DNA of 55,666 bases from a virus, in the IMG/VR virus record IMGVR_UViG_3300046791_000457, positions 1 through 55,666 of that record; one strand, given 5' to 3'. Of this stretch, positions 10,894 through 55,666 are shown in pieces. A program made the position numbers and the translations under genes. Below the pieces are notes generated by a model, which worked only from the letters and a program-made list of their open reading frames with translations, had not been told where the DNA came from and searched no databases. The first letter of the stretch is position 1. Each line of letters starts with the position of its first letter.

Positions 10894-11280
10894 ATGTCGG
10901 CAGTAGGCGGACCAATCCAAGAGATCTCGATCCGGGGTCGCATCTTCCCGGTCGCCGCGGACTCGGACGGCACGTTCAAGCCGGGCGGGTACTCGTCGAC
11001 CATCGAGCCGAACGGCGACGGCGCGACCGCGCGCCCGCTGCTCGAGGCCAAGAACTGGATGCTCGAGAGCGTCAACCTCAGCGTCGACCACGACCGTGGC
11101 GACGTGGAATTCCTGAACGAGCGCGTCGCGGACGTCGAGTTCTCCCCGATCTCGGTCACGTTCATCTCGGGCCACACCTGGTCCGGGCGCGGCAAGCTGA
11201 CCGGCGAGGTGGAGTTCAACCACCAGAAGTCCACCGCAGCGGTCTCCATGGGCGGACCGGGCAAGGCCGCTCAGCAGTGA
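10894..11280 (+). CDS. Tail tube protein
   Basis: The 128-residue subunit of the inner tube, immediately after the sheath. It is beta-rich (IQEISIRGRIFPVAADSD, NLSVDHDRGDVEFLNERV, FISGHTWSGRGKLTGEVEFNH), which is the Mu gpM/tube pattern. It has a strong AAGGAG ribosome site and an 86-nt leader with the same GGGCAAGAGCGCA hairpin as the capsid leader. Its last 4 nt overlap the first gene of the glycan cassette, so the cassette is translationally coupled to a very abundant structural protein. Confidence 0.88.
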   Translation: MSAVGGPIQEISIRGRIFPVAADSDGTFKPGGYSSTIEPNGDGATARPLLEAKNWMLESVNLSVDHDRGDVEFLNERVADVEFSPISVTFISGHTWSGRGKLTGEVEFNHQKSTAAVSMGGPGKAAQQ

Positions 11281-12314
11281 GCAAGCGGGTTCTTCTCACC
11301 GGCGGCTGTGGCTTCATCGGAGGCCACACCGTCGAGCACTGGCTGGCGAATACCGACTGGCACGTCATCGTGCTCGACGGGCTTCGCCACGCCGGCAACG
11401 TGCGGCGGCTGACCGAGGCGGCCAGCTTCGACCCGTCGCGCGTCACCCTGCTCTGGCACGACCTGCAGGCCCCGATCTACCCGGAGCTCGCCGCCGCCAT
11501 CGGCCACGTCGACTACGTGGTGCACATGGCCAGCGACAGCCACGTGGACCGGTCCATCGACGACCCGGTCCCGTTCGTCAAGAACAACGTGGCGGTCACC
11601 CTGACCATGCTGGAGTTCGCCCGGGCCGCGAAGCCCGAGAAGTTCATCCAGATCGGGACCGACGAAATCTTCGGCCCGGCGCCCGACGGCGTGAGCCATG
11701 CCGAGGATGCAGCGCTCCGGCCGTCGAACCCCTACAGCGCTTCGAAGGCCTGCCAGGAGGCCATCGCTTTCGCCTACTGGCGGACCTACGGCGTGCCGGT
11801 GATCTGCACCCGCACCATGAACAACTTCGGGGAGCGCCAGAACCCGGAGAAGTTCGTGCCCAAGGTCATCCGCCAGGTGGCCGCCGGCGAGGTCGTCACG
11901 ATCCACGCGCAGCCGCTGGTGCTGGGCGCCGAGCCCGGGAACCCGGAGCACTGGCTGCCCGGCTCGAGGGTCTGGCTGCACGCAAGGAACCATGCCGATG
12001 CCCTGAAGTTCATCCTGGAGAACATCGAGCCGGCGAGCTACGCCCTCGGCGCGATCGACCCGACGCGGTTCAACGTCGCCGGCGAGCGCGAGCTCGACAA
12101 CCTGGCGATGGCCCACCTGATCGCCCGGATCCTGGACAAGCCGCTGCACTTCGAGCTGGTGGACTTCCACGGCAGCCGGCCCGGGCATGACCTGCGCTAC
12201 AGCCTCGACGGCTCCGCGCTGCGCGCCGCCGGGTGGCGGCAGCCGATGACCATGGACGAGTCCTTCGAGAGGTCGGTGCGTTGGACGGTCGAGAACGAGC
12301 TGGCGAAAGCCTGA
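11277..12314 (+). CDS. NDP-sugar 4,6-dehydratase-like SDR enzyme (RmlB type)
   Basis: An extended short-chain dehydrogenase that would convert a nucleotide sugar (dTDP-glucose in RmlB) to its 4-keto-6-deoxy form. The NAD-binding motif GGCGFIG lies at residues 9-15. The dehydratase-specific Thr-Asp-Glu (GTDEIFG, T128-D129-E130) and the catalytic Tyr153 and Lys157 (YSASK) are all present. NNFGERQNPEKFVPKVI and RYSLD match RmlB landmarks. GTG start, GTGA overlap with the tail tube stop. First gene of a seven-gene glycan cassette inside the tail operon. The substrate is not readable from sequence. Confidence 0.88.
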   Translation: MSKRVLLTGGCGFIGGHTVEHWLANTDWHVIVLDGLRHAGNVRRLTEAASFDPSRVTLLWHDLQAPIYPELAAAIGHVDYVVHMASDSHVDRSIDDPVPFVKNNVAVTLTMLEFARAAKPEKFIQIGTDEIFGPAPDGVSHAEDAALRPSNPYSASKACQEAIAFAYWRTYGVPVICTRTMNNFGERQNPEKFVPKVIRQVAAGEVVTIHAQPLVLGAEPGNPEHWLPGSRVWLHARNHADALKFILENIEPASYALGAIDPTRFNVAGERELDNLAMAHLIARILDKPLHFELVDFHGSRPGHDLRYSLDGSALRAAGWRQPMTMDESFERSVRWTVENELAKA

Positions 12315-15880: not shown

Positions 15881-16332
15881 TGCTGCTCCGCTGCTTCGTG
15901 TTCGATGGCGAGCCGGAGGCCGTCGCGGCCATGGCCGCCTGCGGTGCACCGTGGGTCGTGGCGATGGCGAGCAACACCATCTGGGGCCAGCGCGACTGGC
16001 ACCCGCGGATCGCCCGAGCGCTCGACCTGGCGCCGCGCGACACCCGCCTGCTGCTCCCGACCCTGAACGGCCCGGCCCCGGACTGGCAGGAAGCTGGTCC
16101 CGACAGCCCGGACTTCTTCGCCCAGCGCAAGCACGCCGACGGCTCCCCGAAGGCGGCCGCGGTCGACGTGACGAAGGAGCCCCTGCAGGCGGCCCCGGTG
16201 TGCGCGGTCATCCGCGCGAAGGATGCGCCGATGCTGCTGGGCCCAGGATTCGAGGGCATGCACGAGCGGGCCAGGAAGCTCGGGCGCGTGCTCCTGATCT
16301 CCGACCTCTACCTGGTGCAGCGCCGTGCATAA
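15880..16332 (+). CDS. Unknown protein of the glycan cassette
   Basis: A 150-residue soluble alpha/beta protein not recognised. It begins MLLRCFVFDGEPEAVAAM and ends LISDLYLVQRRA; a TLNGPAPDW segment lies in the middle. The start overlaps the previous stop (TGATG) and its 3' end overlaps the methyltransferase gene by 8 nt, so it belongs to the cassette and probably acts on the same substrate. Confidence 0.6.
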   Translation: MLLRCFVFDGEPEAVAAMAACGAPWVVAMASNTIWGQRDWHPRIARALDLAPRDTRLLLPTLNGPAPDWQEAGPDSPDFFAQRKHADGSPKAAAVDVTKEPLQAAPVCAVIRAKDAPMLLGPGFEGMHERARKLGRVLLISDLYLVQRRA

Positions 16333-16804
16333 AGCCAGCATCGCGATGATGTCCGAGCTCCGCGCGCACGTCCCCGCGGGCGCGCGCGTGCTCGATGTGG
16401 GCGGCGCCGACGTCAATGGCACCTACCGCGAGCTGTTCGGCGACGCGAAGACCTACACATCGCTCGACTATCAGAACGCCGACATCGTGGTGCAGGGCTG
16501 GGACTGGCCACCCGAGCTGGATGGGTCCTTCGACGCCGTGCTCTGCGGCCAGGTCTTCGAGCATGACGAGCGGTTCTGGGTGACGGCGCAGAACATCGCG
16601 CGCGTGCTGCGGCCAGGTGGGCTCGCGATCATCATCGCGCCGGCGGCCGGCGCGGTGCACCGCCACCCGGTGGACTGCTGGCGGTTCTACCCCGACGCCC
16701 CGAAGGCGCTCGCGAAGTGGATGGGCATGGAGCTGCTCGGCTCGAAGCACGCCGACGACAGCCCCTGGCGCGACATCGGCGCCGTGTTCCGCAAGCCCGG
16801 CTGA
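16325..16804 (+). CDS. Class I SAM-dependent methyltransferase
   Basis: A 159-residue enzyme with the Methyltransf_11 outline: VLDVGGADVNGTY (SAM loop), YTSLDYQNADIV (acidic loop), FDAVLCGQVFEHDERF (motif II region) and RVLRPGGLAIIIAPA (motif III). HRHPVDCWRFYPDAP is typical of enzymes that methylate sugars or glycan ends. Last gene of the cassette; the tail chaperone gene begins 83 nt later. It likely caps or decorates the glycan made by the upstream enzymes. Confidence 0.8.
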   Translation: MHKASIAMMSELRAHVPAGARVLDVGGADVNGTYRELFGDAKTYTSLDYQNADIVVQGWDWPPELDGSFDAVLCGQVFEHDERFWVTAQNIARVLRPGGLAIIIAPAAGAVHRHPVDCWRFYPDAPKALAKWMGMELLGSKHADDSPWRDIGAVFRKPG

Positions 16805-40227: not shown

Positions 40228-40276
40228 AAGAAGAACCTACCCCAGCCTGCGGCCCCGGTCAACAGTTATTTCTGTT
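40228..40276 (-). promoter_or_regulatory. Sigma70-type promoter with AACAG-N6-CTGTT operator (copy 1)
   Basis: On the minus strand: -35 TTGACC (40262-40257), 17 nt, -10 TAGGTT (40239-40234) followed by CTTCTT. A perfect palindrome AACAG-AAATAA-CTGTT at 40276-40261 overlaps the -35. It drives the gene starting at 40166. The last codons of the DUF4942-like gene lie over the element. Confidence 0.75.
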
Positions 40277-41115
40277 CCTATGTCGTTTTTCTTCGAGGTG
40301 GGCCGGGCCTCCGGGCGCAGCCGCTTTCCGCCGGCCATCGCGTTGAACTTGGCCAGCAAGTCGGGCCGCAGGAACTCCAGGTGCAGGTTGCCGTTCCCGC
40401 ACGCGCGGAAGCCGAACAGGTCGGTCGCACCGCGCCCGTCCGCCGGTGCCCCCTTTATGGCCGTGGACAGCAGGGAGTAGTAGCCCTTGGAGATCTGGCC
40501 GCGCCCGTCGATGGCCGAGAACACGTTCTCCAGCGCAGTGAGCTTCGCCTCGGCGTGATAGTGGGGCTGGAACCCGCCGCCGCTCCACTTGCGCTCGACG
40601 GTGTAGCCGACGATCGCCCGGCGCCCGACCTCGAGCTGGGTGTTGGTCTTCAGCTTGCTGTGCGGCGGCCGGAGCCACTCGAATACCTCGTTGACCGCCT
40701 CGGCCAGCATCTCGGGAAGCTGGCTGAGCATGCCCGTCGCCATTGCCTGGACGTTGTCGACCGTGAGCTCGGGCAGCTCGTCGCGCTCGAGCTTCTTCTC
40801 CATCTCGGCCCAGGCCCGGACGCTCATCATGCGACGCAGCTCGAGCCGGTCGACGATGGCGCGCCAGGCCTGGCGCTCGACGGCTTTGAGCGAGGCCTCG
40901 GCCTCGTTCCAGCGGCCGTAGTGGTGGCTGCCCCCGTCGGTGGTGACGCGGATCCCCTTGTAGCTCTCGTTGCCCATGGTGAAGGCGTCGTTCAGCCGCT
41001 GCTCGGCGGCCTCGACCGAGGCGAAGGCCGCCCGGATGTCGGCCGCGGCGGCCTGGTAGACGCCCACCAGCGCGGCAATCGTCGCGCGGTGGGCGAGTCC
41101 CTGGTGCTCGTCCAT
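40237..41115 (-). CDS. DUF4942-like protein
   Basis: A 292-residue protein with a helical N-terminal region (TIAALVGVYQAAAADIRAAFASVEAAEQ) and a C-terminal core matching the DUF4942 outline: MKIYGFLRACGNGNLHLEFLRPDLLAKFN-like text (FGFRACGNGNLHLEFLRPDLLAKFNAM). In other phages and plasmids DUF4942 proteins accompany methyltransferases or antirestriction-type genes. It is made with the LPD29-like protein: ATG at 41115 overlaps that stop (TGATG). Its 3' end covers the promoter at 40.23 kb, so repression there may also touch its mRNA. Confidence 0.55.
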   Translation of the reverse strand: MDEHQGLAHRATIAALVGVYQAAAADIRAAFASVEAAEQRLNDAFTMGNESYKGIRVTTDGGSHHYGRWNEAEASLKAVERQAWRAIVDRLELRRMMSVRAWAEMEKKLERDELPELTVDNVQAMATGMLSQLPEMLAEAVNEVFEWLRPPHSKLKTNTQLEVGRRAIVGYTVERKWSGGGFQPHYHAEAKLTALENVFSAIDGRGQISKGYYSLLSTAIKGAPADGRGATDLFGFRACGNGNLHLEFLRPDLLAKFNAMAGGKRLRPEARPTSKKNDIGTEITVDRGRRLG

Positions 41116-41582
41116 CACGCCACCTGAGCCACGGCGCGGGCCGCCTTGAAGGCCTCGCGGGCGGCCTTCTCCATCTGCCAGTCGAAGTCGACGCCGCCAT
41201 AGAAGTTGACGTGAAAGTAGTCGGTCATGGAGTCCGAGCCGTCGAAGTTGTAGGCGTCGATCAGCGCCTTGAGCTGGTCGCGGAGCGCCTTGGCTTCGGC
41301 GGTGTGCATATCGAGGCGTTCGGGGAAGACGTGCGGGGTGTCGAGGTCGTGCGCCAGGCGCGCGGGGTTCATGACCTGCATGCCCGGGACGGCCTGGATG
41401 ACGGCGCGCAGCGAGCAGCCGCCGGCGTAGCGCGAGACCCGCACCGAGACCTTGAGGCCCTTGGGCAGCTCGCCGGACTTCACGCCGGCCTTGATCTCGG
41501 CGCGCACGAGCTTCGCGATCTCCGCGACGTCGAGGTCCCGGTTGTACTTGTTGCCGTAGGAGATGCTGTAGTCGGTGGTCAT
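41115..41582 (-). CDS. LPD29-like large polyvalent-protein-associated domain protein
   Basis: A 155-residue protein with LDVAEIAKLVRAEIKAGVKSGELPKGLKVSVRVSRYAGGCSLRAVIQAVP, matching the LPD29 outline (DVAxLIR ... LKxSVR ... GGxSI). The end SDSMTDYFHVNFYGGVDFDW is common in phage proteins of this type. LPD domains are known from polyvalent proteins injected with DNA that carry anti-defence activities. It is the first gene of its unit, driven by the promoter at 41.63-41.68 kb (ribosome site AGGAAG before the ATG). Confidence 0.55.
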   Translation of the reverse strand: MTTDYSISYGNKYNRDLDVAEIAKLVRAEIKAGVKSGELPKGLKVSVRVSRYAGGCSLRAVIQAVPGMQVMNPARLAHDLDTPHVFPERLDMHTAEAKALRDQLKALIDAYNFDGSDSMTDYFHVNFYGGVDFDWQMEKAAREAFKAARAVAQVA

Positions 41583-41701: not shown

Positions 41702-42232
41702 TCACCGCAGCTCGCCATGCACGCGCAGAAACTCGGTCAGCAGGTCGACCTGCTTCCGATAGATGCTGGCTTCCAACTGGCCCCACGAGTCGGTCGATAC
41801 GGGGAGGCGGCGCGCATGCAGGTCATCGTGGCACCGGCGGCACACCGGTACGATCCTGGTGTCGTCGGTGGTCTGGCCCATCCCCTTCGGGCCGTAGTGG
41901 TGTGGATCGTCCGCGGGCAGCGCGCAGAACATGCAACGCTGCGCTTTCACCCAGCGCCGGTACTCGTCGAACCTCAGCGGTTCGCGCTCGTTGCGCGCTC
42001 GAGCTGCCTTGGGGCGCCGGGCTTTCGGCGCAGCTCGCGGTGGGGGCTGGGCTTCCGCTCGCGCCCGGCGCACGTCGCGGCCGGACACCCCGTCGCTCGT
42101 CCGACCGTTCACTGTGACCACGTAGCGCGCGGTCCTGCCGTGCATCGCTCCGCTGACCACCTCGCCGGGCACCCAGCGCCCCAAGCTGCCCCCGAGCTTC
42201 ACCTCTACCTCGGTGCCGGCGGGGAAGATCAT
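41702..42232 (-). CDS. HNH endonuclease-like protein
   Basis: A 176-residue protein. RCMFCALPADDPHHYGPKGMGQTTDDTRIVPVCRRCHDDLHA (about residues 105-150) is an HNH/DUF968-type core: CxxC, His-His, then CxxCH and H. The N-terminal part (FPAGTEVEVKLGGSLGRWVPGEVV) resembles a KOW/Tudor-like fold. Similar proteins (Ref/DUF968) are recombination-linked nucleases in phages. It overlaps the ATPase gene by 4 nt and follows it in the same transcript. Confidence 0.72.
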   Translation of the reverse strand: MIFPAGTEVEVKLGGSLGRWVPGEVVSGAMHGRTARYVVTVNGRTSDGVSGRDVRRARAEAQPPPRAAPKARRPKAARARNEREPLRFDEYRRWVKAQRCMFCALPADDPHHYGPKGMGQTTDDTRIVPVCRRCHDDLHARRLPVSTDSWGQLEASIYRKQVDLLTEFLRVHGELR

Positions 42233-43941
42233 CCGCAGAGCCTGGCCGCCGCCCGCATGCCCGCGTTGCCGCCCTCGACGAGCATGAGGGTCCGCAGCTT
42301 GGCCGCGGCGTTCCGGACACCGCCCGAACTCGCCGCGTAGTTGTTCGCCTCGGCCGCCTGGGCGAGCGGCACCTCCTCCGGATAGGCATCGACAACGACC
42401 CGCAGGATCTCCCGCTCTGCCTTGCCCAGCTGGCGGTACCAGTGCTCGGCGAGCTCGGCGCCCTCCGGTAGGGGCTCCCAGTGGCCGAGTGCCTCCAGGC
42501 CCGCGTCGGACGCCATCATCTGGTCGTTGCCGCCCGTGACGTAGCCCATGGTGCGCAGCTGCGCCGCCGCGTTGCGCATGCCCCCGCTCTTGCTGCTGTA
42601 GCCGCCGATCATCGCCGCCTGGGTGAGAGACAGCGGGCCGTGCTGGGCGAGGGCTATCAGGATCGTGCGCTCGGCCTTCCCCATCTTCTCACCGTCCGAT
42701 CCGGAGGGCATGTGGAGCGGCCGGGACCGCGGCGCAGGCGACGGCCGCGGCGCAGGCGCGGGACGCGCGCTCTGCGCCGGCGCTCGAGCCGTTGCGATGT
42801 GCCGGACCAGCTCTGCTGCGCCGCGCACGGCTTCGGCCGCCGCCTCCGCGGCGGTCTCGACCGTCTGGGCTGCCTTCTGCAGGGCCCCGAGCTCGCCGGA
42901 CAGGAAGACCGGAACCTCGGTCCAGTGCTCGGTCGCGATAGGCTCCGGCGCCGGCGCGGCCTTCAACGCGGCGATGTCGCGCTCGAGCTGCGCGACTGCG
43001 CGCTCGAGGCGCAGGATCTCGCGCCGCAGGGCCACGGGGTCGTCGGCCGCGGCCTTGGCCTCGACGTCCGCCAGGGCGCCGCGGAGCTCCTCCATGTCGA
43101 CCGGGGCCAGCGTGCGGGCCTGGTGGCGCTTGCCGATCTCTGGTGTGGCGCTCGCGTCGAAGGTCTGCTTCTTGGCGATCTGCACCTTCTCGAAGGTCCC
43201 CAGCCACTGGGGTGACCAGAGGTACATGGTGCCCACCGGCAGGCTCGCGAGCGCGCGCGTGTCGAGCTGCTCGCCCTCGGCGTTCTCGACCACCCAGGCG
43301 TCGATGGCCTTCCGCTCGTGCGAGCCCGATAGCTGCCCGATGAACAGGCACTCGACCTGGTTGAGCACCTCCTTGTTGACCGACTGCGGCCGCTGGGTGA
43401 TCAGCGTGGTGCCCAGGCCGTAGTTGCGGCCGAGCCGGACCAGATCCTCGATGGCCCCGAGCATGCGCTCCTCGCCCTGGGCTTGCTGGGGCGCGAAGAG
43501 CTGCGCCTCCTCGAGCACGACGTGCACCGGGCTGCGGACGCCCTTTGCCAGCTCGAAGAGCCGCTCGGCGAAGTCGGCCACGAAGCGCTTGCGCTCGCTC
43601 TTCCGGAAGCTTGAGACGTCCAGGACCGCCGACAGCATGCGCCCCATGACGAGTTCGGCGACGGCGCGGCCGCTGTCCTGGCTCAGCGGCATGTCACCGT
43701 GCAGGCCGCCCAGCACCGGGATCGGGAGGCCGGGCCGCTTGCCATCGGCCGCCAAGCGCAGGCCGTACCAGTTGCCCACCGGGTCGAGGACGACGACCGG
43801 CGCGCCGGCGCCGAGCAGCTCCTCGACGAGCTTTCCGGCTGCGTAGGTCTTGCCCGCGCCCTTGCGAGCGATGAACGCCAGCGTCTGGGTGACCGCGTCG
43901 AGGGGTAGGGCGCGGGTCTTCGTGATCTTCAGGTCAGCCAT
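42229..43941 (-). CDS. HerA/FtsK-like ATPase with two C-terminal winged helices
   Basis: A 570-residue P-loop ATPase. Walker A ARKGAGKT (residues 25-32), Walker B region VHVVLEEAQLF (139-149), then TLITQRPQSV (sensor). Segments LLSGSHERKAIDAWV-like LSGSHERKAIDAWVVENAEG follow, the HerA/DUF87 pattern. Two near-repeat winged helices occupy the C-terminal end (GKAERTILIALAQHG and GKAEREILRVVVDAY blocks). Start 43941 is favoured by GGAG 6 nt before it; 43956 is an alternative that overlaps the previous stop. No NurA nuclease is seen nearby, which is unusual for HerA. Role unknown: DNA translocation or a defence-linked activity. Confidence 0.78.
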   Translation of the reverse strand: MADLKITKTRALPLDAVTQTLAFIARKGAGKTYAAGKLVEELLGAGAPVVVLDPVGNWYGLRLAADGKRPGLPIPVLGGLHGDMPLSQDSGRAVAELVMGRMLSAVLDVSSFRKSERKRFVADFAERLFELAKGVRSPVHVVLEEAQLFAPQQAQGEERMLGAIEDLVRLGRNYGLGTTLITQRPQSVNKEVLNQVECLFIGQLSGSHERKAIDAWVVENAEGEQLDTRALASLPVGTMYLWSPQWLGTFEKVQIAKKQTFDASATPEIGKRHQARTLAPVDMEELRGALADVEAKAAADDPVALRREILRLERAVAQLERDIAALKAAPAPEPIATEHWTEVPVFLSGELGALQKAAQTVETAAEAAAEAVRGAAELVRHIATARAPAQSARPAPAPRPSPAPRSRPLHMPSGSDGEKMGKAERTILIALAQHGPLSLTQAAMIGGYSSKSGGMRNAAAQLRTMGYVTGGNDQMMASDAGLEALGHWEPLPEGAELAEHWYRQLGKAEREILRVVVDAYPEEVPLAQAAEANNYAASSGGVRNAAAKLRTLMLVEGGNAGMRAAARLCG

Positions 43942-43956
43942 CGTTGTCTCCGTCAT

Positions 43957-45303: not shown

Positions 45304-45499
45304 GTCCCACCCACCCAGCCGCTCGAAGCGCGGCCTGCAGGCGGCACCAGCGACGGCGCGCGGCTTCGATGCTCCGGTCGTGCCCGGCGTCCATCGTGAC
45401 CCCGCAGCTCCAGCAGGACACGGTAGCGGGCGTGTCGTGGAAGCCGCCGGTGTACGGGCGTTCGTTTGCGACGCCGCCGCAAGCGCAGGGCTCGGTCAT
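45296..45499 (-). CDS. Lar-like restriction alleviation protein
   Basis: A 67-residue protein with CACGGVANERPYTGG and SCWSCGVTMDAG, then EAARRRWCRL. The CxCGG...CxxC...AxxxW pattern matches the small Lar zinc-ribbon family in which phages keep restriction-alleviation proteins; members of this sequence class are also just treatment-free small zinc ribbons. It sits beside DUF1643 and the methyltransferase in a presumed anti-defence block. Confidence is limited by size. Confidence 0.5.
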   Translation of the reverse strand: MTEPCACGGVANERPYTGGFHDTPATVSCWSCGVTMDAGHDRSIEAARRRWCRLQAALRAAGWVGHG

Positions 45500-46086
45500 A
45501 TGGCGCCCCCGAGCGTCCGGAGCTGGGCGTCACCCCGAAGGTAGAGCGGGTGTCCGGGGTGCCCGTTCTTCGTGACGTGCCAGGCCTGCCACCGCCCGGA
45601 CAGCGCGCGGACCTGGGCGATACCCGTTCGGAGTGACTTCCATTTTGGTGGTCCCCATCCGGCGACCAGCGGCAGGTCGAGCGGCGCGGTGCCTCGGACG
45701 AACCGCTCGACCACCTCGAGGTTGAGCGGCCCGACCACATCCTCGCCACGCTGGACCGCCTCGAGCATCTCGCGCGGGTCGGTGGCCCGGAAGGCGAACG
45801 GGTTGATCAGCACCAGGGCACCGAAGCCGTCGCGGTGCGCGAAGCCGATGGCCTTGCGCACCGTCGGGTCGTCGAGGTCGTGGCGCGCGCAGCTGGGGTT
45901 GTGAAGGCACGCCACCAGCGGATCCGCGTCGCTCCAGCGCCGGCCGAGCGCGTAGCGGAAGCGACCGCATCGCGAGAAGGCGGCCCACGACTCGCCGTCG
46001 CCCGGGATGCTCAGGTCGAGCCCGTCGAGCACGCGCCGCTCGTCGTTCCGAAAACGAGGAAGCGGGAACCCGGGTAGGAAGCTCAC
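45496..46086 (-). CDS. DUF1643 family protein
   Basis: A 196-residue protein with RYALGRRWSDADPLVACLHNPSCARHDLDDPTVRKAIGFAHRDGFGALVLINPFAFRATDP. This matches DUF1643 (xNPSxAdxxxDDPTxRxxxxFA ... NxFAxRATDP). Members are common in phages and plasmids; activity is unknown. GTG start 46086 lies about 80 nt from the attP, so the gene would be next to the host junction after integration. Confidence 0.7.
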   Translation of the reverse strand: MSFLPGFPLPRFRNDERRVLDGLDLSIPGDGESWAAFSRCGRFRYALGRRWSDADPLVACLHNPSCARHDLDDPTVRKAIGFAHRDGFGALVLINPFAFRATDPREMLEAVQRGEDVVGPLNLEVVERFVRGTAPLDLPLVAGWGPPKWKSLRTGIAQVRALSGRWQAWHVTKNGHPGHPLYLRGDAQLRTLGGAI

Positions 46087-46126: not shown

Positions 46127-46150
46127 ACTCGTTGCCACACCGATACGAGT
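46127..46150. repeat. Inverted repeat beside attP
   Basis: ACTCGT (46127-46132) and ACGAGT (46145-46150) form a perfect inverted repeat with a 12-nt spacer, 15 nt from the attP core. A second perfect repeat, CCGGACAC (46293-46300) and GTGTCCGG (46307-46314), lies within the last codons of the integrase gene. Both are candidates for integrase arm or excisionase sites. Confidence 0.4.
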
Positions 46151-46164
46151 TGTCTCTATTTCTC

Positions 46165-46190
46165 TGGTGGAGGCGGCGGGAGTCGAACCC
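46165..46190 (-). other. attP core: copy of the 3' end of a tmRNA (ssrA) gene
   Basis: Read on the minus strand the 26 nt carry a T-loop TTCGACT, the pairing CCC, then an acceptor end CGCCTCCACCA. This is the last part of a tmRNA/tRNA, and the T-stem diverges just outside the core (no GCGGG before the loop), so it is not a whole gene. It lies next to the integrase start of transcription end, as phage attP sites do. Insertion there would restore the host ssrA. A tRNA-Ser type end is the alternative. Confidence 0.72.
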
Positions 46191-46252
46191 TGGTCCGTTT
46201 CGGGATCCTGACGAAAACAGAGGAAACCTTGCCTTATGTCCAGTGCCAGTTT

Positions 46253-47722
46253 TCATGTGTTTTCCTGTGGGTCGGGGGTACCCGTGCGAAGTCCGGACAC
46301 ACCGGAGTGTCCGGCTGCCGCGATCCGCAAACGGTCGTACACGGCCACAACCTCCGTCCGCTTCTCGCCGTTCGGATAGGCCTCATATCGGTACACATCC
46401 AGTGCCGAGACTCCGGCCTCGAGCGCGACGTCTTTGTGGGTCAGGCCAGCGCCCTCCCGGAGCTCGCGCAGCTCGGCCGAGGCGGCGCTCTGCAGGTGCA
46501 CCTGCTCGGGCGGTGGCGGCGCCTTCCAGTCCACCCGGAGCACCTCGTTGCACAGGGTCTGCCATTCGATGGTGGTGTAGGCGTCGAGCACCACGTCCGC
46601 GACCGCCCGGTGGGTCAGCTTGCGCACGATGGCCTGGTCGATCGCCTGGTTGCGGTTGGCGCTGATCAGGGTCCGGCGCGCGTCGTGGATGCGGCGGTGC
46701 CTGAGCCCGGCGGCGGGCAGGTCCCAGCGCTGCCACTGCTTGTAGATCTCGTTGTGGCTGATATCGACCTTGCCCTGGGCCAGGCGCAGCTCGCTGATAG
46801 TCGGGAACATGAGGTCCTCCGCCGTCGGGGAGCGCCGGTGGTAGAGCGCCCACCCGGTGTCCACCCACCAGTCAAGCCAGCGCTGCAGGTCGGGGTGCAC
46901 CGGCACGATCCGGACTTCCTTGCCCTTGTGGCGGCCCCGCTTGGCGGCGATGTGCTGCAGGCTGCGCAGGGGTGACGCCGTGCGGTTGTAGTCGCCGATC
47001 TTCAGCTTCAGCACCTCGACGGTCACGCGGCCGCCGGCCATGAACAGGGTCGCGTAGATCATCCGGCGGTAGGCCGGGATGGTGGTGCACCCCAGCAAGA
47101 CGGGCAGCTCCGCAGGCGTAAAGACGGCGGTGGCGCGCCAGTTCGGATCGGCGTCCGCCGGCGGGGGCAGGTGCCCGCGCTTGGCGGTCAGGGCCGGCGG
47201 GATGGCCGGGACGAGCTCGTCCTCGAGGGCCTCGATCAGGATGGCGCGCAGGGTGTTGTGGATGTTGCGGATCGTGCGGCCGGCGAGCTTGCCTTCCTTC
47301 TCGAGCAGCTCGAAGGCGTTGCGGATCACCTTGAACCGCACGACCTCCACGAGGGGCATTTTCGGGAACATCGCCGCCAGGTGGTTGTCGACGTGCCCGC
47401 GCTCGTCTTTGTCGGCGCCCTTCACCCCGCGCTCGACGCGCCGGCGGATGACTTCGCGCGCGAAGGTCTCGAACAGGTGGGCCGAGGTCTTGCGGTCCCG
47501 GGGATGCACCCAGGTCCCGGCCTCCTGCTGACGCTTGGTCTGCACCGCGAAGTCGTGCGCCTCGCGCTTGCCCCCGCCCGGGCAGGGCTCGCGCACGCGC
47601 ACGCCGCTCACCCGGTAGACGAGCCAGTAGCTCGGCTTGCGACCGGGCTTGTCCTTGTTGCGGTCGTAGACTGTGGGGAGCTTGACGTTCACGGCTTGCT
47701 CGGCGTCCGATCTCTCAGCCAC
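46253..47722 (-). CDS. Tyrosine integrase fused to a C-terminal XRE domain
   Basis: A 489-residue tyrosine recombinase. Catalytic residues are R232 (AGGRVT), H346-R349 (IHDARR), H371 (LTHRAV) and Tyr382 (LDAYTTIEW). A core-binding domain is near 80-170 (FETFAREVIRRRVERG). Residues about 415-468 form a separate XRE-type HTH (ELRELREGAGLTHKDVALEAGVSALDVYRYEAYP), not usual for integrases. GTG start. It reads toward attP at 46165-46190. The adjacent excisionase-like gene overlaps by 34 nt upstream. Confidence 0.88.
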   Translation of the reverse strand: MAERSDAEQAVNVKLPTVYDRNKDKPGRKPSYWLVYRVSGVRVREPCPGGGKREAHDFAVQTKRQQEAGTWVHPRDRKTSAHLFETFAREVIRRRVERGVKGADKDERGHVDNHLAAMFPKMPLVEVVRFKVIRNAFELLEKEGKLAGRTIRNIHNTLRAILIEALEDELVPAIPPALTAKRGHLPPPADADPNWRATAVFTPAELPVLLGCTTIPAYRRMIYATLFMAGGRVTVEVLKLKIGDYNRTASPLRSLQHIAAKRGRHKGKEVRIVPVHPDLQRWLDWWVDTGWALYHRRSPTAEDLMFPTISELRLAQGKVDISHNEIYKQWQRWDLPAAGLRHRRIHDARRTLISANRNQAIDQAIVRKLTHRAVADVVLDAYTTIEWQTLCNEVLRVDWKAPPPPEQVHLQSAASAELRELREGAGLTHKDVALEAGVSALDVYRYEAYPNGEKRTEVVAVYDRLRIAAAGHSGVSGLRTGTPDPQENT

Positions 47723-47886
47723 GCCACCACCAGGTCGTACTCGAATCGGTTGTTGCGCTGGCTCAGCTTGTGGTGCGGGCAGCCTTGCGCGACGTAGTTC
47801 GAGATCGTGCGTCTGGTGACCCTGAGCCGGAGAGCGAGCTCTTCGGTGGTCATCCAGGGCTCGATTGCCTTTGCGGGTTCACTCAT
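47689..47886 (-). CDS. Excisionase-like HTH protein
   Basis: A 65-residue protein (EPWMTTEELALRLRVTRRTISNYVAQGCPHHKLSQRNNRFEYDLVVAWL), the standard winged HTH_17 helix layout with the W-L ending. It lies directly upstream of the integrase in the same direction, so an excisionase/directionality factor role is likely. Ribosome site AAAGGA. It could alternatively regulate the integrase promoter. Confidence 0.75.
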   Translation of the reverse strand: MSEPAKAIEPWMTTEELALRLRVTRRTISNYVAQGCPHHKLSQRNNRFEYDLVVAWLRDRTPSKP

Positions 47887-49302: not shown

Positions 49303-49654
49303 GGCGCACCTCCAACTTGGTGCCCATCTCGCGGGCCACCTGCTGCAGCGCCTGCAGCGCTCCACCGCAGCGCTCAGCGGGCGCGGTGCGATGCTGGTTC
49401 AGATTCGTCCACCGCGTGAACACTCGGTGCACGGCCTGCTCCCAGCGCCCGGCGATCTTGTTGTCGCCGCTCTGGTAGCTCGCGAGCTCGGCGATCAGGG
49501 GCCGCAGTGCCTCGTCGAAGCGCTTGGCCACATCGCAGGCAATCGGTGGGTCGTAGATGCACCCGGGCTTGGGCTGGACCCAGCCTCGGCACTGCGTGCA
49601 CGCACACAGGCGCATGCCGGCTGTCACGTCCTCCGCGGCCCGCTCGTTAGCCAT
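49295..49654 (-). CDS. Unknown protein with a short Cys motif
   Basis: A 119-residue protein beginning MANERAAEDVTAGMRLCACTQCRGWVQPKPGC, with CACTQC and a later Cys as a possible zinc site; the rest is helical (AKRFDEALRPLIAELASYQSGDNKIAGRWEQAVHRV). Overlaps both neighbours by 8 nt. No family recognised. Confidence 0.45.
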   Translation of the reverse strand: MANERAAEDVTAGMRLCACTQCRGWVQPKPGCIYDPPIACDVAKRFDEALRPLIAELASYQSGDNKIAGRWEQAVHRVFTRWTNLNQHRTAPAERCGGALQALQQVAREMGTKLEVRHG

Positions 49655-50738
49655 GGCGCACCTCCGGAAACTGCCGCACGCGCAGCGGCTCAGGGAACTC
49701 GGCCATGTCACCGCCCTTGCGGTTGATCGGGTGCCACTGGCGCTCGACGGTGCCGTCCTCGGTGATGCGCCCGGCAAACACGTTGGGACGATCGGCGCCG
49801 CCCCCGATCCGTTCCTCGTCGCGACCGCGATTCTCGACCACGGTGCGCCCGAGCTGCTTCACGAAGACCGCACAGCGGGTGTCCTCGCACTGGCGCACGA
49901 TGTCGCGAATCCACTCGACGTTGCAGGGCCTTGCCCCGTTGCCGCTCTCACCGCCGCAGATGATCCAGTCGAGCTCCGCGGGGAAGTCGCTGTGGTTCAC
50001 GAATCCGGGGGCCACAGCGCCGGGCTGTCCCTCACCGGTCCAGTACCCGCCCCGCAGCACGTCTACGCGGTGCTTGCCCGGCCATTGGATGTGGGTGAAG
50101 TCGATCGGACCGAGGAGTGGCTCGGCCGACACGAAGTGCACCGCCGCCGGGAGCTCGAGCAGAACCGGGATGCGCTTGTCGGCCTGCTCCTGGTTCTCGG
50201 CGCTCACGCCCAGCCAGACGTTGGGGAGGATATAGGGCAGCGACGACTCGCCCATCTCGTCGTCGAAGTGGTCGTACAGCTTGGCCGCCAGGGCGCCTGG
50301 CAACACCTCATCCGCCGCGCCGGCCGCCTTCATCAGGTCCCCGTCCCACCACTCGAAGAACTCCCGCGCCCGCTCCGGTCGCTTCGTGAGCACCTGGTGG
50401 GTGTGCTGCGGCGTCGCCGCCATCACTCCGAAGCACGCGGCGATCATCTCGAACGGCACCCAGTCACCGAACAGGTCGGTCATGTCGCACCAGAACCACT
50501 TCGTCGGGGTGCGGCGCCGCATCACCTCCGCCAGCCTATTCCCATCCAGGTAGGTCTCGACGTCCTGGCCGCGCTGCTCCTGGAACACCGGCATCCGGAA
50601 CCGCGGCTGTGTCCTCGAGCTGTAGCAATTCTTGCAGCCCGGACTGATCTTCACGCAGTGGTGCCCGACGTTCTCGCCGATGCGCGCGCGGATCGGGTTG
50701 ATGCTGCGGTCGGTCCACTCGATTGATGTCTTACCCAT
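49647..50738 (-). CDS. Gp37/Gp68 (DUF5131) family protein
   Basis: A 363-residue protein starting MGKTSIEWTDRSINPI. HHCVKISPGCKNCYSSRT has a Cys-rich site like the family's radical-SAM-type motif (C, then CxxC). DMTDLFGDWVPFEMI, HQVLTKRPERAREFF, PNVWLGVSAENQEQADKRI, FVSAEPLLGPID and DWIICGGESGNGARPCNVEWIRDI are family hallmarks. DUF5131 proteins occur in many phages and are thought to be TIM-barrel enzymes of unknown reaction. Confidence 0.83.
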   Translation of the reverse strand: MGKTSIEWTDRSINPIRARIGENVGHHCVKISPGCKNCYSSRTQPRFRMPVFQEQRGQDVETYLDGNRLAEVMRRRTPTKWFWCDMTDLFGDWVPFEMIAACFGVMAATPQHTHQVLTKRPERAREFFEWWDGDLMKAAGAADEVLPGALAAKLYDHFDDEMGESSLPYILPNVWLGVSAENQEQADKRIPVLLELPAAVHFVSAEPLLGPIDFTHIQWPGKHRVDVLRGGYWTGEGQPGAVAPGFVNHSDFPAELDWIICGGESGNGARPCNVEWIRDIVRQCEDTRCAVFVKQLGRTVVENRGRDEERIGGGADRPNVFAGRITEDGTVERQWHPINRKGGDMAEFPEPLRVRQFPEVRHG

Positions 50739-50928
50739 CCGCCGGCTCCTTCTTGGGCTTCCACTTCTCGTGCTCCTCCACCCGTTTCTCGAAGTCCCGG
50801 CGCACATCGTCGAGCTGGTCCGCCAGCAGCGACTTCTCGCGCGACTCGCGGCGCAGCTCACCGGCGCGCCAGCGCAGCTCCTCGACCCAGTCGGTCGTGA
50901 TGTGCTCGATCTTGCCCATGTCACCCAT
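50731..50928 (-). CDS. Short charged coiled-coil protein
   Basis: A 65-residue, highly charged helical protein (WVEELRWRAGELRRESREKSLLADQLDDVRRDFEKRVEEHEKW). No family recognised. Overlaps its neighbours by 8 nt each side, so belongs to the early operon. Confidence 0.45.
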   Translation of the reverse strand: MGDMGKIEHITTDWVEELRWRAGELRRESREKSLLADQLDDVRRDFEKRVEEHEKWKPKKEPADG

Positions 50929-51442
50929 GGGGCACCTCCGCCTGCGCGAGCGCCACCAGCGCGGCGGCGAGGTCCGCCCGAAGCTTTTCGGCCGCCTTGA
51001 CGGCCCCGCTCTGGCTGATCATGGCGTCGTCTGGGACCACTGCGCGAACGAGTTCGAAGGTCAGCCGCTGCCACTCGCGCGACCCATCCTCAAGCTTGCC
51101 GACTTGGACGACCAGCGCCTCTATCCGCTGCCGCGCGGCGTCGAGTTCGTCGGCGTACTTCCGCGCCGCGTATCCGGCCAGGGCGCGCCCGAAGCTGACA
51201 CCCTGCTGCCTGCAGGCTTCGACGTTCTGGTCGGCCACCGACTCGGCGCGCTGGCAGCGCCGGTTCAGCCGGGCGATGGTCTCTCGGGCCTGCTTGAGCT
51301 CGGCCTCGGCGGCTTCGGTTGCGCGCACCTTCGCGCACACACGGCGGTAGGCACGTGGCGACATGAACTTCTGTTCCATGTGAGTCGCGATCAGCTCGGC
51401 CCACATCTCGTCATCGGTGAAGTCGTCGGGGATGCCGATCAT
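50921..51442 (-). CDS. Unknown coiled-coil protein
   Basis: A 173-residue protein, start 51442 (MIGIPDDFTDDEMWAELIATHM). Mostly helical with coiled-coil spacing (RATEAAEAELKQARETIARLNRRCQRAESVADQNVEACR). No family recognised. ATG overlaps the next upstream stop by 4 nt. Confidence 0.45.
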   Translation of the reverse strand: MIGIPDDFTDDEMWAELIATHMEQKFMSPRAYRRVCAKVRATEAAEAELKQARETIARLNRRCQRAESVADQNVEACRQQGVSFGRALAGYAARKYADELDAARQRIEALVVQVGKLEDGSREWQRLTFELVRAVVPDDAMISQSGAVKAAEKLRADLAAALVALAQAEVPHG

Positions 51443-52358: not shown

Positions 52359-52915
52359 GGGGCTGACCCCTTCCGGGTCTGTCTGGCGTACTCGCGGATC
52401 CCCGCGACGATCGACTGGGCGATCCAGTTCCTGATAGAGGGCGGCGGCGTCACCCCGTCGCCGTTCAGGCGCGCGTTGAACGCCGCGGTGACGATGCGCT
52501 CGACGTCGAGCCCCTCGGCCTCGTCACCCTGTTCCAGGGTCGGTGGCCCGCCCCGGTACAATCCGATGAGCCTCGACTGCTCGGCCAGATACGCCAGGAT
52601 CGCGCGCTTGGCGCCGGGCACCGTCCGGTCGTGCTTCAAGTCGATGCTGAGGCTGTTCTCGCCGAACTCGGTCGAGTTCGCGGTCCTGGTGAGCGCGGTG
52701 ATGTAGATGCGGGCCACCTCGCGGCGGGTGTCGCTCCACACCAGCTTCGTGACGAACTCCGAGTCGTCCCACTCCATGCCTTCCGGAGCGGGCACTGCGG
52801 GCGCGTCGACGCACGCCCAGCTGCAGTACGTGTAGCTTCCGATGGCCTGGGCGGGCTTCCCGCACACCGGGCACATGCGGCGCTTGCCGGTATCGGGGTC
52901 GATGATGCGGCTCAC
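52355..52915 (-). CDS. Unknown protein with an N-terminal zinc-ribbon
   Basis: A 186-residue protein. RRMCPVCGKPAQAIGSYTYCSWACVD gives CPVC and CSWAC, a zinc-ribbon. The rest is alpha/beta with EFVTKLVWSDTRREVARIYITAL and a helical end (RNWIAQSIVAGIREYARQ). GTG 52915 overlaps the methyltransferase stop (GTGA). No family recognised. Confidence 0.5.
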   Translation of the reverse strand: MSRIIDPDTGKRRMCPVCGKPAQAIGSYTYCSWACVDAPAVPAPEGMEWDDSEFVTKLVWSDTRREVARIYITALTRTANSTEFGENSLSIDLKHDRTVPGAKRAILAYLAEQSRLIGLYRGGPPTLEQGDEAEGLDVERIVTAAFNARLNGDGVTPPPSIRNWIAQSIVAGIREYARQTRKGSAP

Positions 52916-54357
52916 GCTGCACGCTCCTGGCTGGTGGGCACGTTGGCCGCGACGATTGCCTCGCTGAGCTGGGGGCAAACGGAATTCCCCGCCAGGCGGG
53001 TCTGAGCCGTCTTGGTCAGCGGCTTACCGTTGTGAATGGGCGCGATGTCGTAGTCGCGCGGGAATCCCTGGGCCGCGAAGAGCTCGTGGGGCTGAAGCAT
53101 TCTCATGCCCAGGTCCACGATCCGGTACGGCTCGCCATGCACCGTCACCAGGGCGAACCGGTCGCGCGCCGTCACCGTGCCGAGCGGGAGCTGCGCGCTG
53201 GCCGGCGTGCCGGTGCCGTAATACTTGATCAGGAACGCCTCGACGAGCGAGTGGTGATCCTGGGCGGTCACGGTGCCGAGCGTGCTGCGCGCGTCGTGCC
53301 CCACGACCCCGCCGTAGTGCTTGGCGATGAACGGCACCACCAGGTGCTTGTCGTTGGTGGCGCACACCGTCGCGAGGGGCAGCCCGAGCTGCTGACCGCG
53401 GAAGGTTCCGGCGCCGCAGCCCTCACGCAGACCCGCGCCCGTGATCGTCGAGTAGTGGCCGTGGCGCACCAGGAAGGGCTCGACCAGGGCGAACCGGTTG
53501 CTGGCGTCCAGGGTGCGCAGTGGCTCCCCGAGCGGGTGCACGCGCTCGGCCTGTCCTGCATCGCCGCCGTGGTACTTCATCACGAAGGGGTGTGCCGTCC
53601 CGAGCACGAAGCGCTCGACCCCGGTGGCGATGCGCCGGAGCGTGGCCTCGGCCAGGGGCTTCGAGCGTCCGAAGATGGAGGGGCAGGGCAGCGACCAGTC
53701 GATGATGCTCGCGGCCGGCTGCCACTTCTGCGCGCGGCCCTTCCCGTGCGACGGAGCGGGCCACACGATGGGCTGGCCGTCGCAGCGCGCGACCATGAAG
53801 AGCCGGCGGCGCGTGGTCGGGGTGCCGTAGTCGGCAGCTACGAGCTCGCGAAACTCGACCTGGTAGCCGAGGGCTCGGAGCTTGCCCACCCACATGCGAA
53901 AGGTGCGCCCGGCCTTCTCCTTCACCGGCTGGCCGGCGTTATCGAGCGGTCCCCAGGTCTGAAATTCCGCCACATTTTCTAGACAGATGACGCGGGGGCG
54001 CACAGTGCGGGCCCAGCGGATCACCACCCAGGCGAGGCCGCGGATCTTCTGGTCGCGGAGAGCGGTGCCCTTGGCGCGGCTGAAGTGCTTGCAGTCCGGG
54101 CTGAACCAGGCGAGCCCTACCGGCCGCCCGCCGCAGGCCTCGACCGGGTCGACCTCCCACACGTTCTCGCAGTAGTGGCGGGTCCGCGGGTGGTTGGCCT
54201 GGTGCATCGCGATCGCCTCGGCGTCGTGATTGATGGCGATGTCGATGGGCCGACCGAGCGCGGCTTCGATGCCGGTGCTCGCGCCGCCACCGCCGGCGAA
54301 CGAATCGACCACGAGCTCGTCCTCGAACGAGGCGCGGATCTGGGGAGGTCGCGTCAT
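52912..54357 (-). CDS. DNA cytosine-5 methyltransferase (Dcm type)
   Basis: A 481-residue methyltransferase. Motif I DSFAGGGGASTG (18-29), motif IV SPDCKHFS with catalytic Cys89, ENV at 127-129, TTRRRLFMVAR (motif VIII), and the late motif TRLAGNSVCPQ. The region from about 280 to 440 holds long Thr/Gly repeats typical of the target recognition domain. SPDC replaces the usual PPC, as in many phage enzymes. It likely protects phage DNA from host restriction; the recognition sequence is unreadable. Confidence 0.9.
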   Translation of the reverse strand: MTRPPQIRASFEDELVVDSFAGGGGASTGIEAALGRPIDIAINHDAEAIAMHQANHPRTRHYCENVWEVDPVEACGGRPVGLAWFSPDCKHFSRAKGTALRDQKIRGLAWVVIRWARTVRPRVICLENVAEFQTWGPLDNAGQPVKEKAGRTFRMWVGKLRALGYQVEFRELVAADYGTPTTRRRLFMVARCDGQPIVWPAPSHGKGRAQKWQPAASIIDWSLPCPSIFGRSKPLAEATLRRIATGVERFVLGTAHPFVMKYHGGDAGQAERVHPLGEPLRTLDASNRFALVEPFLVRHGHYSTITGAGLREGCGAGTFRGQQLGLPLATVCATNDKHLVVPFIAKHYGGVVGHDARSTLGTVTAQDHHSLVEAFLIKYYGTGTPASAQLPLGTVTARDRFALVTVHGEPYRIVDLGMRMLQPHELFAAQGFPRDYDIAPIHNGKPLTKTAQTRLAGNSVCPQLSEAIVAANVPTSQERAA

Positions 54358-54671
54358 CCTGGGTCTCGCTCCAGGGCTTCGAGCAGCTCGAGCGACTCGC
54401 GGAGCAGCTTCCGGGCCACGGCGACCGTGTCGCGCTTCGCCTGGTCCATGTCGTCGGCCTTGCCGCGGACCACATCGCCAGTCCAACGCACGCACCAGCG
54501 GACGTCGCCTGTTCGGGGGGCCTCGTACACCGACAGCTTGACGGCGCCGCACGCGGCCTCGAAGCCGATGTCCCCGTCGAGGATGGGCTCCCAGGCTGCC
54601 CACTCGTCGATGAAGTCCTTCGTGAGCGCGGGCGCGCCCAGGTCCAGGGCTTGCTGCTGCTGCTTCGTCAC
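54354..54671 (-). CDS. Unknown protein upstream of the methyltransferase
   Basis: A 105-residue protein (DEWAAWEPILDGDIGFEAACGAVKLSVYEAPRTGDVRWCVRWTGDVV, then DMDQAKRDTVAVARKLL). Beta-rich first half and a helical end. ATG overlaps the upstream stop by 4 nt. No family recognised; could be a methyltransferase partner. Confidence 0.45.
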   Translation of the reverse strand: MTKQQQQALDLGAPALTKDFIDEWAAWEPILDGDIGFEAACGAVKLSVYEAPRTGDVRWCVRWTGDVVRGKADDMDQAKRDTVAVARKLLRESLELLEALERDPG

Positions 54672-55215: not shown

Positions 55216-55666
55216 CTACTCCGCGGTCTCGGTCGTGGGCGCGGCCTGGGGCTGGCGCGCCGCGAGTTCCCGCAGCCACGGCAACGGGTCGTCGCTGCCA
55301 CCGAACGGCAGCGCGCCCTTGATTTCTCCATGCGCCGCGCGCAGCAACAGCAGGGCCGCGGTGCTGGTGGACGTGTAGTGCTCCAGCAGCTTGCCGGCGT
55401 CGCCGGCCAGCTGTACTGCCCAGCCGGCCGCGCAGTGCTTCGTGCCGCAAGCGCTGTGCCACTGGCCCTGGTCGTGCGTCTCGGGATGCTGCTCGATCTG
55501 CTCGACCACGCGGCCGGCGAGATTTGGGATCACCGGGATCGGCGGGAGGGAGGCACCGACGAGGGAGGCACCGTCGAGGGAGGCACCGACGAGGGAGGCA
55601 TTGCGGAGGGAGGCACCGACGAGGGAGGCACCGTCGAGGGAGGCACCGACGAGGGAGGCATTGCGG
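55216..55666 (-). CDS. Pentapeptide-repeat protein, 5' end cut by the window edge
   Basis: Reading leftwards from the window edge the frame codes repeated xASLx units (NASLV, GASLD, GASLV, GASLR ...) for 8 full repeats or more, then PPIPVIPNLAGRVVEQIE and a C-terminal domain with CGTKHCAAGWAVQLAGDAGKLLEHY. The Cys/His pair and AGWAV resemble a small phage domain that often follows pentapeptide repeats. Pentapeptide proteins fold as a right-handed beta helix, and some mimic DNA. The gene starts outside the window. A GTG at 55533 would give a shorter product without repeats, but the open frame continues through them. Confidence 0.7.
   Translation of the reverse strand, partial: RNASLVGASLDGASLVGASLRNASLVGASLDGASLVGASLPPIPVIPNLAGRVVEQIEQHPETHDQGQWHSACGTKHCAAGWAVQLAGDAGKLLEHYTSTSTAALLLLRAAHGEIKGALPFGGSDDPLPWLRELAARQPQAAPTTETAE
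55546..55666 (-). repeat. 60-nt tandem repeats coding pentapeptides
   Basis: Lines 55561-55606 and 55621-55666 are identical; the period is 60 nt, made of four 15-nt pieces. The minus strand encodes xASLx units. Identity at silent positions points to recent duplication or homogenisation, so copy number is likely variable. Confidence 0.75.

Follow-up and report, generated by a model that had tools for sequence, protein, structure and literature searches.

An uncultivated contractile-tailed phage very probably carries, just past the end of its integrase gene, a 26-nt attP core that is identical to the 3' end of the tmRNA gene ssrA, which would make it a temperate myovirus and the 3' end of its host's ssrA the attachment site attB. 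The window, by which we mean the whole stretch of DNA that was analysed, is a viral record of 55,666 bases with a GC content of 68.6%. We assign it to a contractile-tailed phage since it encodes a tail sheath, a tape measure protein, a baseplate hub, a portal and a large terminase. The features around the putative attachment site are collected in Table 1.

Table 1. Features at and around the predicted attachment site of the window.
Feature	Position	Strand	Basis
DUF1643 protein	45496..46086	-	phrog_3230, E 5.9e-35; lies on the CCA side of the core
attP core (predicted)	46165..46190	-	26 nt identical to the ssrA 3' end; unique; homology-based
Weaker extension, CGGACCA versus ssrA CGGACGC (5/7)	46191..46197	-	comparison with tmRNA genes
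Integrase, 489 aa	46253..47722	-	matches to phrog_1 and Mx8 Int; C-terminal HTH_31-like segment at residues 416-448
Small HTH_17 protein	47689..47886	-	just upstream of int, overlapping the int start by 34 bases

On the plus strand the core reads TGGTGGAGGCGGCGGGAGTCGAACCC, and on the minus strand, from 46190 to 46165, it reads GGGTTCGACTCCCGCCGCCTCCACCA. The first-pass annotation had taken these bases for the last part of a minus-strand tmRNA lying next to int, with a TTCGACT loop and a CGCCTCCACCA end, and this reading holds to the letter: three T-stem bases are followed by the T-loop TTCGACT, the T-stem 3' strand, the acceptor 3' strand and ACCA, the terminus is CGCCTCCACCA, and the core is separated from the int stop codon (46253) by 62 bases on the same strand. 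The phage bases that follow CCA begin GAGAAATAGAG. The 26-mer is present in a single copy in the 55,666-base window when up to three mismatches are allowed, and at the same tolerance it was found in none of 100 dinucleotide shuffles. Around the core we detected no sigma-70 promoter or terminator pattern and no convincing arm-type repeats, just short two-copy repeats. A spurious open reading frame on the opposite strand (46132-46665, +) corresponds to the tmRNA end read in antisense (WWRRRESNPGP), and frames of this kind may be misannotated as proteins.

ARAGORN found no tRNA or tmRNA gene in the window, and an Rfam scan of the window gave no match at the gathering score. At a relaxed threshold, Rfam returned a tmRNA match on the minus strand at 46233-46165 that scored 14.4 bits, the gathering score being 47. 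The low score, together with the absence of ARAGORN genes, indicates that the core is the end of a tmRNA gene and not the whole gene. That weak match is also what could be said for a phage-borne tmRNA gene or pseudogene acting as RNA, as could the statement in PMC5148205, citing Williams 2003, that ssrA may be a passenger on mobile DNA. Most of the gene is absent, however, and the strand folds no better than its shuffles (z 0.58 and 1.00), and we regard a functional phage tmRNA as extremely improbable.

The 26-mer is widespread as the end of true tmRNA genes. It occurs exactly in 74 of 396 acidobacterial genomes, a sample whose Acidobacteriota label rests on the names of two of its members (L125 and L126, both from the same phylum draw), and all 89 of its places there were examined: intact tmRNA genes account for 71, displaced fragments that ARAGORN leaves uncalled for 18, and tRNAs for none. 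Comparison with the intact genes bears out the earlier observation of a broken T-stem on the phage side, the phage having GGACCA before GGG where all 71 genes have GGACGC; indeed, CGGACGC precedes GGG in every one of them (71/71). The first-pass annotation had let identity end at this break and set the core at about 26 nt. This stands for exact identity, but homology upstream of the 26 nt probably fades instead of ending abruptly: with the extension included, the phage matches ssrA at 31 of 33 positions, and both mismatches fall exactly at the broken T-stem. The 5-mer CGGAC occurs at a frequency of 0.0017 on the minus strand of the window, and a match to CGGACGC of at least 5/7 is found at 0.035 of positions, so that we judge this residual likeness to be weak but probably real. 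The extension is probably part of the phage-side half-site to which the integrase core-binding domain would attach.

Among viral contigs, at least 119 stretches hold the 26-mer, and among the matches listed ARAGORN called 79 tmRNAs (42 plain and 37 permuted) and one tRNA, leaving 39 uncalled. The tRNA (L114, 364-438) is a complete tRNA-Ala(CGC) whose last 26 bases are those of ssrA. It raises the question of whether attB might be a tRNA-Ala(CGC) gene, with the phage rebuilding that tRNA rather than ssrA, and the nearest integrases, those of phage Mx8 and of the metagenomic viral contig L255, do have tRNA-like cores. Yet this gene is one among at least 119 viral matches, a tRNA was found at 0 of the 89 acidobacterial places, and the bases upstream of the phage core, CGGACCA, fit the tmRNA sequence at 5 of 7 positions whereas L114 has AGGTTGC. 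Since a tRNA-Ala(CGC) gene does end in the 26-mer, we consider a tRNA target conceivable, though unlikely.

We return to ssrA as the probable target. The core is flanked by phage DNA on both sides, with the DUF1643 gene on the CCA side and the integrase gene on the other, which identifies it as attP and not as attL or attR. Were the window an integrated prophage with host DNA, the 26-mer being its attL or attR, such a junction would likewise hold the end of ssrA, and the record does not say whether it is complete; the core, however, is interior, a phage family gene adjoins its CCA side and int the other, and the window has neither an intact tmRNA by ARAGORN nor a second copy of the 26-mer. It is thus hardly credible that the window is a prophage. 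We then joined the phage core in silico to two acidobacterial ssrA genes used as stand-in hosts (L127 and L128). In both cases (2/2) ARAGORN recognised a tmRNA in attL, i.e. host ssrA up to the core followed by the phage DNA of the CCA side, and it recognised none in attP or attR.

In the mechanism that we propose, the integrase (46253-47722) would pair attP with attB. As exact identity begins three bases before the T-loop, the crossover would probably take place within or beside TTCGACT, with the arms of the T-stem as likely half-sites. The phage would contribute the 3' strands of both T-stem and acceptor, with CCA; an intact ssrA would be rebuilt at one junction, on the DUF1643 side, and the displaced 3' end of the host gene would remain beside int at the opposite junction. 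This is in keeping with the general account in PMC4383910, according to which the target gene stays whole since whatever lies past the crossover is supplied by the element. The small HTH_17 protein is probably an excisionase, occupying the place that uoi has in Mx8, and may aid excision.

The same 26-mer serves as an attachment core in other elements too: it bounds integrase-bearing islands at ssrA, and the earlier annotation had likewise noted that other tyrosine integrases use ssrA as attB. In one acidobacterial genome (G326), a single contig holds an intact ssrA and, 20.9 kb from it, a displaced copy; a PF00589 integrase there ends 32 bases from the intact gene. A contig of another genome (G021) has an intact ssrA and two displaced copies, one of which is contained in the 3'-terminal part of a PF00589 integrase gene that runs the same way as ssrA. 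This arrangement is close to that of the window, the core being read in the direction of int, though in G021 it is within the int 3' end. In a third genome (G030), intact and displaced copies are 18.8 kb apart with a short integrase-like open reading frame between them. Separately, the two displaced ends on the G021 contig (L240, G021:C32; 1533-1558 and 7608-7633) lie downstream of the intact ssrA and resemble tandem islands.

Displaced fragments also accompany integrases in viral contigs. Among the 39 uncalled stretches in the matches listed, 28 have ACGC immediately upstream, as in tmRNA, and 11 do not. With an integrase profile built from integrases gathered here, that of the window included, we found an integrase within 1 kb in five of these 11 and none within 1 kb in the other six. 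The layout of the window, with the integrase upstream and on the same strand, recurs in three of the 11 listed (L030 at 39 bases, L113 at 227 and L041 at 732); two more (L033 and L055) have an integrase within 1 kb of the fragment in other layouts.

These arrangements bear on whether the 26-mer could be an unused relic, either a captured host ssrA end or a decayed att site, with int working elsewhere. Failure to find an integrated copy of the phage in the genome_contigs collection or in the 396 acidobacterial genomes is compatible with a relic, as is the broken T-stem. However, a break in the T-stem on the int side is what is expected of attP, identity from the T-loop to CCA is perfect, the core is placed beside int, and a like arrangement is seen in other viral contigs and in an acidobacterial island; moreover, the window holds no tRNA or tmRNA gene and no second copy of the ssrA end. 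We consider a relic even less likely than a tRNA target, and retain the 26-mer as the probable attP core. The first-pass annotation had proposed a search for prophages at ssrA that carry the 26-nt repeat: it did turn up integrase-bearing islands, but no lysogen of the window phage in the collections covered, and attB is accordingly inferred.

The host was sought along several lines. A 28-mer consisting of the CA flank of the phage and the 26-mer occurs twice in genome_contigs and nowhere else in viral contigs. Both genome matches, which are in MAGs (Acidobacteria bacterium and Candidatus Sulfopaludibacter), suggested Acidobacteria as the host. No relative of the window Int was present beside the two copies in the DNA fetched, nor was the tail sheath matched in the 396 acidobacterial genomes (a search run without a positive control), and for these reasons an acidobacterial host is not supported. 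The Int itself had no relative in genome_contigs, in a search that reaches close relatives only, and none at 1e-8 in the same 396 genomes, again without a positive control.

The integrase belongs to an Mx8-like branch. It matches phrog_1 (E 2.9e-17), and against 50,697 phage records its sole match was the Int of Myxococcus phage Mx8 (four records; 33.7% identity over residues 106-407, E 2e-28), which makes Mx8 Int the closest named integrase, with the HDARRT motif in common. The integrase of L255 is 37.7% identical to the window Int over residues 105-397. R232, H346-x-x-R349, H371 and Y382 are invariant in all three proteins, and R232, H346, R349, H371 and Y382 are what we take to be the tyrosine-recombinase active site. 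The Int gave no match to PF00589 at E 0.01, only weak unrelated matches to PDB sequences, no relative among plasmids and, in a single-protein search, none among viral contigs. A profile of the three sequences retrieved one further distant relative from viral contigs (L258, 27%), near which no tRNA or tmRNA gene was found. A profile of window and Mx8 Int drew generic integrases from 24 of the 396 acidobacterial genomes, many beside tRNA genes and one (L163) adjoining a tmRNA, and the HDARRT pattern searched at the DNA level was present in 0 of the 396. At the C-terminus, residues 416-448 match HTH_31 at 25.7 bits, slightly below the cut-off of 27. Structure prediction (A3, three sequences) was poor, with a mean pLDDT of 46.4; in this low-confidence model, residues ~409-489 form four helices.

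Mx8 and the window are alike in having a small HTH gene that overlaps the start of int. They differ in the core: in Mx8 it is a tRNA-like T-arm in antisense orientation inside int, while in the window it is the ssrA end, in sense orientation, past the int stop codon. According to PMC6070905, the attP of Mx8 lies within int, whose 3' end is replaced on integration, altering the Int C-terminus. Since the core of the window phage lies beyond the stop codon, integration would leave its Int unchanged, unlike that of Mx8, and the HTH-like C-terminus of the window Int is likewise unlike Mx8. Inside its int, L255 carries gcgaggagtacgggacttgaaccc, the 24-base antisense core that Mx8 also has, and not the ssrA core. 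It is tempting, if still rather doubtful, to suppose that an integrase of the Mx8 branch has, in nature, exchanged a tRNA target for ssrA, the near-palindromic T-arm core having been flipped and moved outside the int frame and the attP-encoded tail of Int swapped for an HTH domain. If so, lysogeny would cease rewriting the integrase. As a separate observation, the 24-base tRNA-like core inside int (L255, 3219-4793, -; L121, 1132-2856) is common to Mx8 and a metagenomic virus.

Insertion into the tmRNA gene while rebuilding it is common and well known among mobile DNA. In PMC4383910, Islander shows tmRNA to be enriched above any tRNA type as a tDNA target, and according to PMC12424338 tRNA or tmRNA genes are the sites of 33.8% of 1.76 million islands, so that the use of ssrA is in itself ordinary. 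Known ssrA elements such as CP4So, the Dehalococcoides islands and those of Islander share with the window an ssrA 3' fragment in the element, an adjoining integrase and target rebuilding, but they are known as integrated copies whereas the window is known in phage form alone. CP4So of Shewanella oneidensis, like the window, has a 26-nt ssrA match, and its excision has been demonstrated; its integrase, as described in PMC5148205, is P4-like and not of the Mx8-like branch. The Dehalococcoides ssrA islands have DsiB, which is compared there with Ccr recombinases (PMC3146451), in place of an Mx8-like integrase. The combination of an Mx8-branch integrase, its HTH-like tail and an ssrA core that lies outside int is mildly new, and we do not claim it to be unreported.

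The predicted attP has several uses. It predicts the insertion site of an uncultivated phage, at which trans-translation would be left intact, and it supplies junction sequences with which to seek the phage's host. The window, Mx8 and L255 also form what may be a small natural series in which the target changes and int escapes self-alteration on integration.

Outside the attachment region, a sugar epimerase/dehydratase gene (PF01370, E 4.9e-47) and a methyltransferase-like open reading frame (11277-12314 and 16325-16804, both +) are located between the genes for the tail sheath and the tape measure protein. At 55545-55666, where the record ends on the right, there is a perfect tandem duplication of 60 bases built on a 15-base repeat, which may be an end effect of the assembly. 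The right-hand region further encodes, on the minus strand, a C5 cytosine methylase, a DUF5131 protein, a HerA-like ATPase and a DUF4942 protein (52912-54603, 49647-51074, 42229-43956 and 40237-41118).
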